A stretch of DNA of 64,000 nt from Lacticaseibacillus suibinensis (GTDB taxonomy: Bacteria > Bacillota > Bacilli > Lactobacillales > Lactobacillaceae), in assembly GCF_003946175.1 (NCBI RefSeq), contig NZ_RHOK01000001.1, positions 1-64,000 of the forward strand. The letters run 5' to 3'. The notes under the pieces were generated by a model. It worked only from the letters and a program-made list of their open reading frames with translations. It was not told the DNA's origin and did not search any database. Positions 1,542-6,227 of this stretch are shown piece after piece (the stretch's first letter is position 1; every line of letters starts with the position of its first letter). The translations under genes and the position numbers were made by a program.

Positions 1542-3815
1542 TTAGATGTGTGCCGCAAATCGAATCGCTGTCAGCACAATCCCCGTTAATATTGTGATTG
1601 CGATTGCTAGGCCAATCAAGGCTGGGCTGATTGCAGCAATTCCCCAGCCAGTTAGTGACAGAACCAGCGTCAGTACGCAGTTGCCACCGATTGCTATCGC
1701 CACGGCATGACTGGGTCTGCTGGCCCAGAATGGCTTTTTGGTGCGGGTCATCAGGATCGTCAACATCGCGCTAAAAATCAGATAGACGTAAAGACCGGTG
1801 CTGACTTGAGCAGTGGTAAGACCGAGCGATTGTAACCAAGTTAGCCAACCGTATCCGACCGCTGACCAGCCCAGAGCCAGGATGCCAGCAATCTTGCTAA
1901 GCTTGGCCAGGTTCCAGCTTTCTGGCCGGTAGCTGATTGTTGTGCGATCAGTACCGAGTACTAGGGTCACGCAGTCATTAAGGATTGCGACCAGAATCAT
2001 CGCGTTTAAGGTTAGCGGAATGAAGTGGAAAATTAGATAACCTAATGTGAGTAGTAGCGTCAACTCTGCGGTGCGCGACAGTTTGGTGATTGTCCAGGTC
2101 ATCATACGTTGATAGACGCGGTGCCCGGCGTCGAGAATCTCGATAATCGGGGTCAGGCCGTCTGTCAGCATGACCATGCGCGCCGAGCGCTTGGCAAGAT
2201 CTACGGCAGTGCTGACGGCGATACCGACGTCGGCTTGCTTCAAGGCAGGCGCGTCGTTGACCCCATCGCCAGTCATACCGACAATGTAACCTTCATGTTG
2301 CATCCGTTTAGCTATGGCTAGCTTGTTTTCGGGTACGACATCAGGAATCCCAGCTAGTTCGGTAATTTTGGTGTCATCAGTCAGGTCCGTGTATGAGATG
2401 ACCTGGCCACGGAGTCCGACCGTTTCTGCAACCGCGGCAGCAGTTTTCTGGTTGTCACCAGTCAGCATGACCACCTTGACCCCGCGGGATTGAATGGACT
2501 GAATGGCCTGAGCTGAATCGGTTCGCGGTTGATCTTGCAGAATGAATAGCCCAATGAGTTGATCTCCAACGGCAATTGCCGTGGTCCGCCCAGCAGCGTA
2601 GTCGATCGCGTTTAAATCTGGATGGTTGCTCGTCTGGGCGACGAGCTTTTTTAAAGAGCCGAGTCGAACGGTCGCAGAAGTTGCGCCGGCTGTGACAGTT
2701 GCCTGCGAGTAACCGGTGCTGGAATTAAACGGCGTGAACTGTTGTTGCACTAATGGTGCGATATGCTGCGCTAGCGCATAGTGGAGAATTGCAGCATCGA
2801 CCACGCTTTGGTTGTGCGCGTCGGCGGCACTAGCAGCGAATTGTACGACGGTCGTGTCCGAGTAATCAGAAAAATTGTAGAGTGCGACCACTGACGGTTT
2901 ATTGGCGGTGATGGTGCCTGTTTTGTCGACCAGTAAGAGGTTCATGTTAGCTGCCTCTTGAATCCCAGTAAGGTCGGAGACTAGAACTTGCTTCTTGCTC
3001 AAAGCCTTGGCTTCAACCGAGTTAGCCACCGCGAAACTTGACGGCATGGCAATTGGAATGGTGGCGATGAAAAGCATGGCCAGAAACGGTAGCATTTCAA
3101 CCAAGTTTTCGTGTCGGATGGCAGCGGCGATAATCAAGATGACTGCCAGCAAAGCATCGAGAATTGCCAAGTAACCGATGATCTTACCTAAGAGCTTTTG
3201 TAGGTGGCCAGGTGCCGAGCTTTGGTTGATCAGACTGATAGTCTTACCTGAACGGCTGTTCGCACCAGTGGCGGTAACGACGGCCAAGGCGTTGCCAGAG
3301 AGAATTTCGGTACCGGCATACGCGGTATCGCCGGGCTGATGTCTGACAGCGTCGGACTCACCAGAAATCGAGCTTTCGTTGATTTCCAGCGTATCCGTCA
3401 GCAGGCGCACATCGGCGGGGATAATGTCTCCTTGGCGAATGCTAATCAAGTCATCGACGACAAGCTTCTGTGACGCTAGGCGTTGCCATTTGCCATCACG
3501 GTTGACCGCTGTTGTTGGCGTCAGGTCATGAGATAGGCTGCTAAGCACGGTATTAGCCCGGCGGGATTGGATCGCACCGTTTACTGCCGCAAAAAGCAGC
3601 ATCAGCACAATGAAGCCAGCCTGGATTCCTTTGCCTAACACCAATTCGATCAATAGGGCACCTTCGAGAATCCATGCATTGGGTTCCCACAGCCGGGTCA
3701 GAATTGCCTTGGCAAAGTTGAATGGTGGTTCAGTGACGGTGTTTGCACCATTGGCTGCCAGACGCTTTTGGGCTTCTGCTTGAGTAAGGCCTGTCAATAC
3801 TACTTTATTTTTCAT
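1542..3815 (-). CDS. P-type ATPase, P3A-like (probable proton or cation pump)
   Basis: An ATP-driven membrane pump of 757 aa, short like the plasma-membrane H+-ATPase (P3A) group. Visible motifs: SGESDA of the actuator domain near residue 152, phosphorylation site DKTGTIT near 297, and hinge GDGVNDAP near 515, with hydrophobic segments clustered at about 45-85, 210-265 and the last 200 residues. The membrane motif before the phosphorylation domain reads IPIAMPSS rather than the common PVALP, so the transported ion is not certain. The ATG at 3815 lies 6 nt after AGGTG; GTG 3824 and ATG 3818 are alternatives. It follows the riboswitch-controlled enolase by 70 nt with no clear terminator between, so it is probably cotranscribed. 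A proton-extruding role during fluoride (HF) stress is inference. Confidence 0.85.
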   Translation of the reverse strand: MKNKVVLTGLTQAEAQKRLAANGANTVTEPPFNFAKAILTRLWEPNAWILEGALLIELVLGKGIQAGFIVLMLLFAAVNGAIQSRRANTVLSSLSHDLTPTTAVNRDGKWQRLASQKLVVDDLISIRQGDIIPADVRLLTDTLEINESSISGESDAVRHQPGDTAYAGTEILSGNALAVVTATGANSRSGKTISLINQSSAPGHLQKLLGKIIGYLAILDALLAVILIIAAAIRHENLVEMLPFLAMLFIATIPIAMPSSFAVANSVEAKALSKKQVLVSDLTGIQEAANMNLLLVDKTGTITANKPSVVALYNFSDYSDTTVVQFAASAADAHNQSVVDAAILHYALAQHIAPLVQQQFTPFNSSTGYSQATVTAGATSATVRLGSLKKLVAQTSNHPDLNAIDYAAGRTTAIAVGDQLIGLFILQDQPRTDSAQAIQSIQSRGVKVVMLTGDNQKTAAAVAETVGLRGQVISYTDLTDDTKITELAGIPDVVPENKLAIAKRMQHEGYIVGMTGDGVNDAPALKQADVGIAVSTAVDLAKRSARMVMLTDGLTPIIEILDAGHRVYQRMMTWTITKLSRTAELTLLLTLGYLIFHFIPLTLNAMILVAILNDCVTLVLGTDRTTISYRPESWNLAKLSKIAGILALGWSAVGYGWLTWLQSLGLTTAQVSTGLYVYLIFSAMLTILMTRTKKPFWASRPSHAVAIAIGGNCVLTLVLSLTGWGIAAISPALIGLAIAITILTGIVLTAIRFAAHI

Positions 3816-3885
3816 CATAGACACCTATTTTCTTTTTGAAATAGCATGCCGGCACCAGTCAGTCACCGGATACCGCCATCTGGAC

Positions 3886-5172
3886 TCAGTCGAAGTCAAC
3901 TGAATCTGGGAAGTGGGCTAGGCGCGTGCCATCAGCGCCCAGTTCTTCTTCAATCCGCAAAAGTTGATTGTACTTCTCCACGCGCTCGGAGCGGGCTGGG
4001 GCACCGGACTTGAGTTGCGCAGCGTTGGTGGCAACGGTGAAGTCAGCGACAAAGGTGTCGCCAGTTTCACCAGAACGGTGGGACATCATCGTGGTGTAAC
4101 CATTCTTGCGCGCTAAGCGGATCGCTTCCAAAGTTTCGGTAACCGTGCCGATTTGGTTGAGCTTGATCAAGATGCTGTTGGCCATGCCTTGCTTGATAGC
4201 GTCTTTGATCAGCGCTGGGTTGGTGCAGACCGGATCGTCTGCGACAAGTTGCACTCGGTCGCCGTATTTTTGGGTGAAGTTGGCGAAATGGCCCCAGTCT
4301 TCTTCACCGTACGGGTCTTCGATGGAGATAATTTCTGGGAACTTGTCCAGCAGGTGAATGTAGTATTCGCCTAGTTCGGCAGGGGTGTAACGCTTGCCTT
4401 CAAAGTCATAGTTCTTAGTCTCACGGTTGTAGAAGTAAGATGCAGCTGCGTCAAAGGCGATGGCGATTTCTTTGCCAGGTGTGTAGCCTGCCTTGATGAT
4501 GGCGTCATGCAACATTTGCAAGGCGTCCTCGGAGTTCTTGAGGTCCGGCGCAAACCCACCTTCGTCCCCAAGACCGGTGGTGTATCCGGCTTCTTCGATT
4601 ACCTTCTTCAACGTGTGGTAGGTATTGGCGATTTTCTCGAAGCCATCACGGAAGCTGGAACGATCGACTGGGGTGATCATGAATTCCTGAATATCGATGC
4701 CGTTGTCGGCGTGCTCACCACCGTTGATCACGTTGTGGAACGTTTGTGGCAGCTCCAAGTCGGTGCCGCCGAGGTAGCGATACAGCGGTGTGTGCAAGGC
4801 GTTGGCTGCTGCACGGGCAGTGGCCATTGACACCCCTAAGATTGCGTTAGCCCCTAGGCGTGCCTTGTTAGGTGTGCCGTCTAAGTCGATCATCAGCTGG
4901 TCGATGTGGGCTTGGTTGAAGGGGTCGGCACCGTGCAAAACCTGGTTGATCTCGGTATTGACGTTGGCCACGGCCTTTGAGACGCCTTTGCCTTGGAGCC
5001 GGTCGCCGCCGTCGCGCAACTCGACGGCTTCTTTTTCGCCGGTCGATGCACCAGATGGTACTTCCGCGCGGCCAAGCGTACCATTTGACAAGATAACATC
5101 GGCCTCAACAGTTGGGTTGCCGCGGGAATCGAAAATCTCGCGCGCCTTCACAGATTCAATCACTACTGACAT
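3886..5172 (-). CDS. eno: enolase, under fluoride riboswitch control
   Basis: Converts 2-phosphoglycerate to phosphoenolpyruvate in glycolysis; enolase is a classical target of fluoride inhibition. 428 aa, normal length. Visible family motifs: SRGNPTVE near the N-terminus, HADNGIDIQEF near 160, GDEGGFAPDL near 205, metal-binding IED and DD stretches near 285-315, LIKLNQIG near 340, SHRSGET near 370 and KYNQLLRIEEE near 395. Flanks of the catalytic residues are unusual (IEDPYGEEDW and VADDPVCTN where many enolases have IEDGLAEDDW and VGDDLFVTN). The ATG at 5172 has AAGGAG 9 nt upstream; the open frame extends further but runs through the riboswitch terminator. It stands alone, not in a gap-pgk-tpi cluster, so it may be a second, fluoride-induced enolase (inference). 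Confidence 0.95.
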   Translation of the reverse strand: MSVVIESVKAREIFDSRGNPTVEADVILSNGTLGRAEVPSGASTGEKEAVELRDGGDRLQGKGVSKAVANVNTEINQVLHGADPFNQAHIDQLMIDLDGTPNKARLGANAILGVSMATARAAANALHTPLYRYLGGTDLELPQTFHNVINGGEHADNGIDIQEFMITPVDRSSFRDGFEKIANTYHTLKKVIEEAGYTTGLGDEGGFAPDLKNSEDALQMLHDAIIKAGYTPGKEIAIAFDAAASYFYNRETKNYDFEGKRYTPAELGEYYIHLLDKFPEIISIEDPYGEEDWGHFANFTQKYGDRVQLVADDPVCTNPALIKDAIKQGMANSILIKLNQIGTVTETLEAIRLARKNGYTTMMSHRSGETGDTFVADFTVATNAAQLKSGAPARSERVEKYNQLLRIEEELGADGTRLAHFPDSVDFD

Positions 5173-5190
5173 AATTGTGCTCCTTCCGGT

Positions 5191-5285
5191 AAAAAAAAGA
5201 TGACGTCTACTGCACACAGAACCTGTGCAGTAGACGTCATCAAATTGGTTTACCAATTAGTTTTAGTGGCGAACGTCATCGCCGA
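5191..5285 (-). promoter_or_regulatory. fluoride riboswitch (crcB motif) with intrinsic terminator, controls eno
   Basis: On the minus strand the leader begins GGCGATGACGTTCGCC (5283-5268), the conserved first stem and loop of the fluoride aptamer, then an AATTGGT/ACCAATT hairpin (about 5258-5243), then TGATGACGTCTACTG. The loop GACGT and downstream ACGTC can form the aptamer pseudoknot. The same ACGTC belongs to a perfect 18-bp terminator hairpin (5241-5224 with 5216-5199, 7-nt loop) followed by eight T residues. Without fluoride the terminator should form; fluoride binding stabilises the pseudoknot and lets transcription reach eno, whose ribosome binding site follows at once. Family consensus and mechanism are established knowledge; the fit here is read from sequence. 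Confidence 0.95.
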
Positions 5286-5303
5286 TTAACTTTTAACGCC
5301 CAA

Positions 5304-5332
5304 AGCATACTCCCTTCCAAAATTTTGCGCAA
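5304..5332 (-). promoter_or_regulatory. promoter of the riboswitch-eno unit
   Basis: TTGCGC, a 17-nt spacer and TATGCT on the minus strand, placing the transcript start about 15 nt before the fluoride aptamer, as expected for a leader riboswitch. Confidence 0.7.
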
Positions 5333-5484: not shown

Positions 5485-5883
5485 ATGCAGCGATTGCGAT
5501 ACCAGGATATTTTGGCGGTGTTCATCGGCGGCTGCTTCGGTGGAGTCGCCCGCTGGGGAATCGGCTTGTGGCTCAATGATGCCGATACGATGTTTGGCAC
5601 TGCGGCGGTGAATTTGGTCGGTAGCTTTTTGCTGGCATTTGTCACTTATGGCCTAGCACTGTACATCGACTTGCCGAGCTGGCTGATTTTGGCGTTGGGG
5701 ACTGGTTTTATCGGCGCTTTCACGACGTTTTCGACCATGGTGCTGAACCTTTACCAACACGTCGGCCAGTCGCCGGTGTATGCAATCGGAATTTTCTTCA
5801 TTGAGCTGGTGGTTGGTTTAGCTGCGGCGTTTGGCGGGTATTTATGCGCTGAAGCTTGGGGAAGGCGGCGCAAAACATGGTGA
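5485..5883 (+). CDS. crcB: fluoride channel CrcB/Fluc, first subunit
   Basis: Small membrane protein (132 aa, four hydrophobic segments) of the CrcB/Fluc family, which lets toxic fluoride leave the cell. Visible family signatures: FGGVARWGIG near residue 17, NLVGSFLLAF near 40 and FIGAFTTFSTM near 75. ATG 5485 is chosen because AGGAGGAAG lies 5 nt upstream. Its 3' end overlaps the second crcB gene by 7 nt, so the two are translationally linked; such pairs usually assemble as heterodimers of oppositely oriented subunits. It is divergent from the riboswitch-controlled enolase. Confidence 0.95.
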   Translation: MQRLRYQDILAVFIGGCFGGVARWGIGLWLNDADTMFGTAAVNLVGSFLLAFVTYGLALYIDLPSWLILALGTGFIGAFTTFSTMVLNLYQHVGQSPVYAIGIFFIELVVGLAAAFGGYLCAEAWGRRRKTW

Positions 5884-6227
5884 TATTAGTTGCATTAGGT
5901 GCTGGGGTTGGCGCAGTAATGCGCTATATCCTGACACAATTAGGCAAGAACTGGTGGCCTGGGGTGCCGGTGGCGACGCTTCTGATCAATGCTAGCGGTG
6001 CCTTATTGGCAGGATGCTTGGCGATGATTGCATTGCCGCAAACGGGGTCACTATTGTTGTTGACTGGCGTGTGTGGTGGGTACACAACTTTTTCCACCTT
6101 CATGACCGACGCGTTAATTTTATTGCGGAATCGGCGTTACCGCGCGTTCGCATGGTATTACTTTGGCACAGCAGGTGCTGGGATTGTCTCCTTGATCATT
6201 GGTGCGTGGCTGGGTAGTTTGTTGTAG
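5877..6227 (+). CDS. crcB: fluoride channel CrcB/Fluc, second subunit
   Basis: Second CrcB-family protein, 116 aa, four hydrophobic segments. Signatures: GAGVGAVMRYIL near the N-terminus, LLINASGALLAG near 40 and GGYTTFSTFM near 70. ATG 5877 overlaps the stop of the first crcB gene; an upstream TTG at 5856 is less likely. It probably forms the working fluoride channel with the first subunit in the membrane. No clear terminator follows before the next small gene. Confidence 0.93.
   Translation: MVILVALGAGVGAVMRYILTQLGKNWWPGVPVATLLINASGALLAGCLAMIALPQTGSLLLLTGVCGGYTTFSTFMTDALILLRNRRYRAFAWYYFGTAGAGIVSLIIGAWLGSLL

Follow-up and report, generated by a model that had tools for sequence, protein, structure and literature searches.

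The stretch of DNA analysed here (the window; 64,000 nucleotides of Lacticaseibacillus suibinensis, contig NZ_RHOK01000001.1) possesses an enolase gene (eno) on its minus strand, followed on the same strand by a P-type ATPase gene and flanked by a divergent pair of crcB genes. By its sequence, the minus-strand leader of eno belongs to the fluoride riboswitches of class RF01734. The Rfam covariance search of the 64-kb window, the check proposed in an earlier note made from the sequence, places the aptamer on the minus strand at 5292-5224 with 44.5 bits, above the gathering score of 34, and E 4.3e-9. The element thus lies where that note had put it (5191-5285), except that the aptamer match begins a few bases upstream, at 5292 and not at 5285. 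A model of Lactobacillaceae aptamers (R1) gives 67.6 bits, a value that includes the window sequence itself among the 45 training rows. P1 is formed by GGCG (5283-5280) and CGCC (5271-5268), both on the minus strand. The loop GACGT (5273..5277, minus strand) provides the 5' strand of the pseudoknot, and ACGTC (5233..5237, minus strand) its 3' strand. The third stem departs from the Rfam consensus, and the 69-nt aptamer by itself folds no better than shuffled sequences (z -1.0) with a folding program that disregards pseudoknots.

The intrinsic terminator (5191..5241, minus strand) consists of a perfect 18-bp stem (5241-5224 with 5216-5199), a loop of 7 and eight T residues at 5198-5191. It is recovered by the terminator scan as well as by folding, and every sequence element named in the earlier note (aptamer core, partner, terminator and T-run) is present. 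The 50-nt terminator reaches -28.5 kcal/mol (z -9.7), with 0/200 shuffles equally good. The 3' end of the aptamer is common to the terminator stem, and the ACGTC strand lies inside both. Such an expression platform, overlapping with the 3' strand of the aptamer, is one of the features by which a switch of the RF01734 type is recognised. A candidate promoter, TTGCGC-17-TATGCT (5304..5332, minus strand), was picked by eye at 7/12 consensus positions and would put the transcript start near the aptamer; it falls below the threshold of the promoter scan, which finds no minus-strand promoter above threshold. A putative ribosome binding site, GGAAGGAG (5180..5187, minus strand), precedes eno.

The eno gene (3886..5172, minus strand) encodes a protein of 428 aa with 585.7 bits to TIGR01060 (cut-off 300) and matches to PF00113 and PF03952. 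The motifs SGAST, GGEHA, QEFMI, GDEGG, IEDP, ADD, IKLNQ, SHRSG and LKSG are all found in it, and we take them to correspond to catalytic and metal-binding residues of the yeast enzyme. The ATPase gene (1542..3818, minus strand) has a likely ATG start at 3818, chosen by eye, 67 nt past the eno stop, and the terminator scan lists no minus-strand terminator in this gap; both genes may be co-transcribed from the riboswitch leader. A terminator-like hairpin of 16 pairs after the ATPase gene (1513-1478, minus strand) is likely the end of the operon. The best-scoring NCBIfam family of the ATPase is TIGR01647 (class IIIA, plasma-membrane proton pumps) with 486.3 bits; since this score lies below the equivalog cut-off of 615.5, the protein is here called proton-pump-like only, and proton transport is treated as a presumed rather than an established property. 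Its best PDB matches are the class IIIA plasma-membrane H+-ATPases AHA2 (5ksd) and Pma1 (1mhs), with which it aligns over nearly the whole length. It carries DKTG, PIAMP and ILND motifs, and the ILND aspartate is aligned with that of AHA2 5ksd, which we take, in number and role, to be D684.

The divergent genes encode two CrcB (Fluc) subunits on the plus strand. The first (5485..5883) starts with an ATG at 5485 behind GGAGG and has 73.3 bits to PF02537 for 5491-5880; the second (5856..6227), the start codon of which is not settled, has 81.7 bits (threshold 32.9 for both). Neither RF01734 nor R1 detects a full plus-strand aptamer in the leader of this pair. A partial plus-strand match of R1 at 5190-5216 (18.7 bits, E 0.013) was rejected as a crcB riboswitch, being the opposite strand of the palindromic terminator.

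We regard it as very probable that the locus is a transcriptional ON fluoride riboswitch controlling an operon that encodes an accessory enolase and a proton-pump-like ATPase, with the divergent CrcB pair exporting fluoride. Without fluoride, ACGTC would pair into the 18-bp terminator and transcription would stop ahead of eno. In its presence, as a magnesium complex, the pseudoknot of the aptamer would hold ACGTC, the terminator would fail and the eno-ATPase operon would be made. That fluoride is bound and operates the switch is predicted from family membership, as the fluoride dependence of the leader is taken over from the published biochemistry of this riboswitch family. The ON-switch layout with eno as first gene, as the earlier note had read it, is supported by the overlap of aptamer and terminator and by the gene order. 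While the CrcB pair would export fluoride, the extra enolase may provide glycolytic capacity as long as enolase is partly inhibited, and the ATPase may remove protons entering as HF and help keep the membrane potential needed for CrcB export.

The ON logic was proposed for the class in the first description of the crcB RNA motif (PMC2864571). The window locus shares with the RF01734 class a score above cut-off, P1, the pseudoknot, the overlapping terminator and the proposed ON logic, but differs in having the pseudoknot letters GACGT/ACGTC in place of the B. cereus type and eno, not an exporter, as first gene. A riboswitch-driven eno is already known in print: eno of Enterobacter cloacae FRM belongs to a fluoride-riboswitch operon and is up 176-fold with fluoride (PMC5533749), and enolase is "often observed" in fluoride-riboswitch operons (2024 review, PMC11139923). 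Because these sources already give it, the link between eno and fluoride sensing is not new, and the window locus is one more example of a class already described. The FRM operon (ppaC, uspA, eno, gpmA, crcB, orf5249) resembles the window in that a fluoride riboswitch drives enolase together with crcB, and its genomic island has transposases on its flanks. The six-gene FRM operon has ppaC next to the riboswitch, whereas the window has eno first and a full-length class IIIA-like ATPase second, with its crcB genes divergent and without an aptamer of their own. The annotation of FRM orf5249 names a divalent cation transporting ATPase, but this ORF comprises only 261 bp (PMC5533749), in contrast to the full-length gene of the window. 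The literature searched contains no link of a fluoride riboswitch to a P-type ATPase of the proton-pump type, though the gene list of Baker 2012 might name one. The eno-ATPase module is the part of the locus worth follow-up.

Among 301 Lactobacillaceae genomes, the RF01734 search yields 108 rows in 69 genomes. First genes behind the riboswitch were assigned by tblastn with four window proteins as queries, within 450 nt downstream: eno comes first in 41 rows, which belong to 39 genomes, whereas 24 rows begin with crcB and 13 with the ATPase, and 30 match none of the queries. Ten of the latter 30 have crcB further down; for the rest, such gene names as there are were given by eye. The ATPase gene directly follows eno in 21/41 riboswitch-eno rows, with some copies broken; one of the 21 (G044; 28% identical, with a PEGL motif) is probably a different type of P-type ATPase. 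An ATPase belongs to a riboswitch operon in 34/108 rows (31 genomes), or in 33 rows and 30/301 genomes if G044 is left out. Outside the family, 133 rows are listed for the rest of the class (hand count), 59 of which were examined, 30 of these with only 1,500 bases downstream. Behind these 59 switches eno occurs once (G560, another family of the same order), the ATPase never, and crcB within 450 nt 31 times (hand count); one further row has eno on the opposite strand. With 41 eno and 33-34 ATPase of 108 rows against 1 and 0 of 59 elsewhere in the class, the use of eno and ATPase by fluoride riboswitches is concentrated in Lactobacillaceae in this sample, which is less expected than a riboswitch-driven eno as such.

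Arrangements within the family vary. At L168 (G176) and L188 (G246) the fluoride riboswitch lies between eno and the ATPase gene, with only the ATPase behind the switch. At L135 (G181) and L136 (G132) the crcB pair is followed by two further fluoride riboswitches; behind them stand, as judged by eye, a short ORF of the pyrophosphatase type (189 aa) and a gene resembling metallophosphoesterases.

The earlier note had linked fluoride sensing directly to a glycolytic enzyme. This holds insofar as eno is the first gene, but the gene is not the basic or only enolase of the cell: on a different contig, the same genome encodes a second enolase, which has 56% identity to the window eno and groups with housekeeping enolases. 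Queried with this housekeeping enolase, all 39 sampled genomes with a riboswitch-eno contain another full-length enolase, which is of the housekeeping type (75-100% identical) in 37 and a second fluoride-clade member in G068 and G226; by comparison, at least two enolase matches occur in 54/301 sampled genomes (hand count). Since a second enolase is present in the window genome and in 39/39 riboswitch-eno genomes, the switch appears, from sequence comparison, to drive an additional, inducible isozyme along with a P-type ATPase, and not the basic glycolytic gene. The riboswitch-linked enolase is interrupted, split or truncated in 5/39 cases (L146 in G011, L139 in G290, L142 in G020, L123 in G232 and L157 in G124), in the presence of a full housekeeping enolase. 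The benefit of the extra enolase is hence not universal, and the broken copies are consistent with its being dispensable.

In a quick tree of 90 enolases, the riboswitch-linked ones fall within a group of 65 rows, and a branch with SH-aLRT 100 separates 25 others (18 from Lactobacillaceae and 7 more distant loci), among them the second enolase of the window genome. Tree and residue counts omit six enolase fragments of <400 residues, and the tree includes 7 of 72 distant loci. These 72 enolase loci outside the family (53-57% identity) look like ordinary enolases; they gave a single R1 match, at 16.8 bits and E 0.12, with a model that may miss other lineages. The two groups differ at 14 positions with at least 90% agreement in each; among these are 374 (Thr to Phe), 391 and 393 (both Ser to Ala), close to the SHRSG and LKSG motifs. 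This branch and these positions would suit an alternative in which the riboswitch is real but its enolase is a specialised, fluoride-insensitive isozyme and not merely an extra dose. We consider this unlikely, if the most durable of the alternatives. All checked catalytic-site motifs are kept in the window protein, and fluoride-clade enolases without a riboswitch are the only enolase match in some genomes (e.g. G033, G286). A change specific to riboswitch-linked enolases that could confer fluoride tolerance was looked for within the clade; linked and unlinked members differ at just three conservative positions (171, 235, 379) at 80% agreement, in a comparison that counted 42 rows as riboswitch-linked, including L168 and L188 with their riboswitch between eno and ATPase. 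Because the catalytic motifs are retained and only these three conservative positions mark the riboswitch-linked members, an extra dose of enolase is favoured over a resistant enzyme, as far as residues can tell. At three loci, L239 (G272), L240 (G098) and L249 (G226), a fluoride-clade enolase stands beside a class IIIA-like ATPase on the same strand and no riboswitch was found; in G272 and G098 this enolase is the sole enolase match of the genome.

The island shows signs of transfer. The riboswitch-linked enolase of the window and that of Lapidilactobacillus luobeiensis (G181), a member of another genus, are 98% identical in protein and 92.8% in DNA, with leaders 94.5% identical. Between their housekeeping enolases the identity is only 81%. 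In G132, of the same genus as the window, the riboswitch enolase is 98% and the housekeeping enolase 89% identical to those of the window genome. Copies of the 128-nt leader with 90.7-94.5% identity occur in this island in G132, G181, G159 and G176, three of which belong to other genera, and in three plasmids. The latter, from beer or breweries, are plasmids of Secundilactobacillus paracollinoides, Pediococcus claussenii and P. damnosus and carry riboswitch, eno and crcB pair near transposase genes; they are the three examined in detail out of 11 plasmid records (H1-H11) in which eno occurs together with a crcB pair. These plasmids (pL11995-3, pL254-2, pL21533-7) possess the same riboswitch (69.1 bits with R1), an eno 91.4% identical in DNA and crcB genes of 82-86% identity, but differ from the window in the transposase genes nearby and in the ATPase, which is represented only by matching pieces, with no full gene listed after eno in an incomplete gene table. 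Between the window island and those of G132 and G181, identity is 93% for eno, 82-88% for crcB and 76% for the ATPase; since crcB and ATPase are less similar than eno, the uneven similarity suggests a mosaic history.

Whether the leader acts through its terminator was considered across the family with a strict test, which asks for a stem of at least 8 Watson-Crick pairs that shares bases with the pseudoknot strand and leads into a T-rich stretch, and which was controlled by single-base shuffles of the downstream sequence. Such a terminator is present in 25/41 riboswitch-eno leaders, as against 0.7% with shuffled downstream bases. The other 16 have no stem of at least 8 bp in this test, and some of them may form imperfect stems or act on translation. 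These 16 of 41 relatives, along with a weak aptamer match on contig C34 of the window genome (30.1 bits) that is not followed by any evident gene on its strand, might be taken to mean that the element is mainly translational, or a relic without switching. Such an interpretation is improbable for the window, where aptamer, pseudoknot and 18-bp terminator with T8 are all intact, and where the leader is not decayed, given its 90.7-94.5% identity in four other genomes and three plasmids.

An alignment of 45 of the 74 distinct Lactobacillaceae aptamers that score at least 34 bits, the window included, supports the transcriptional switch further. Over the 15 named pairs, 87.3% of cells are paired, a share that falls to 26-56% once the partner is displaced by 1-3 columns. 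It reaches 99.4% in P1 and 99.6% in the pseudoknot helix, where three of the five pairs are changed on both sides in some rows (12 rows with A-U to G-C, 9 with C-G to U-A, 2 with U-A to C-G). The third stem is weaker, with 68.7% of cells formed, partly owing to alignment gaps there. The earlier note had argued for covariation by setting GACGT/ACGTC of the window against the GGAGT/ACTCC pseudoknot presumed typical of Bacillus cereus, and the argument proves right because pairing persists at 99.6% with compensatory changes. A chance resemblance, i.e. a strong terminator preceded by a GC-rich hairpin, can draw on the small size of the aptamer, its third stem that differs from the consensus and the unremarkable fold of the aptamer alone, but we give it a negligible probability in view of the E-value of 4.3e-9, the compensatory pseudoknot changes, which speak strongly against it, and the recurrence of such aptamers before eno, crcB and the ATPase.

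For the family as a whole, we see an even chance that the fluoride response of Lactobacillaceae has been rebuilt around energy metabolism, with a mobile, fluoride-switched accessory enolase module, often including a class IIIA proton-pump-like ATPase, as the commonest riboswitch target in the sample. If so, the pump (33/108 rows and 30/301 genomes without G044) would be a member of the fluoride regulon absent from the literature searched. Some Lactobacillus-type genomes have a switch-free eno-ATPase pair of the same clade that holds their only enolase match. The surroundings suggest that organisms which depend mainly on glycolysis counter fluoride with a backup enolase, and perhaps with proton pumping, besides export, and that plasmids, in part of brewery origin, carry the fluoride kit from one genus to another. 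A genome with two enolases offers a clean test case for whether the induced isozyme is an extra dose or fluoride-tolerant.

Two minor RNA elements were noted besides. The weak match on C34 (79297-79357, L137), considered as a second riboswitch of the window genome, was rejected at 30.1 bits, below the cut-off, with only short ORFs behind it on its strand; it runs against its neighbour genes, by eye of the plsX and recG types, and looks like chance or a relic. In the window, a PyrR binding site (RF00515) is located on the minus strand at 54560-54446, and its 54.0 bits are exactly the gathering score.
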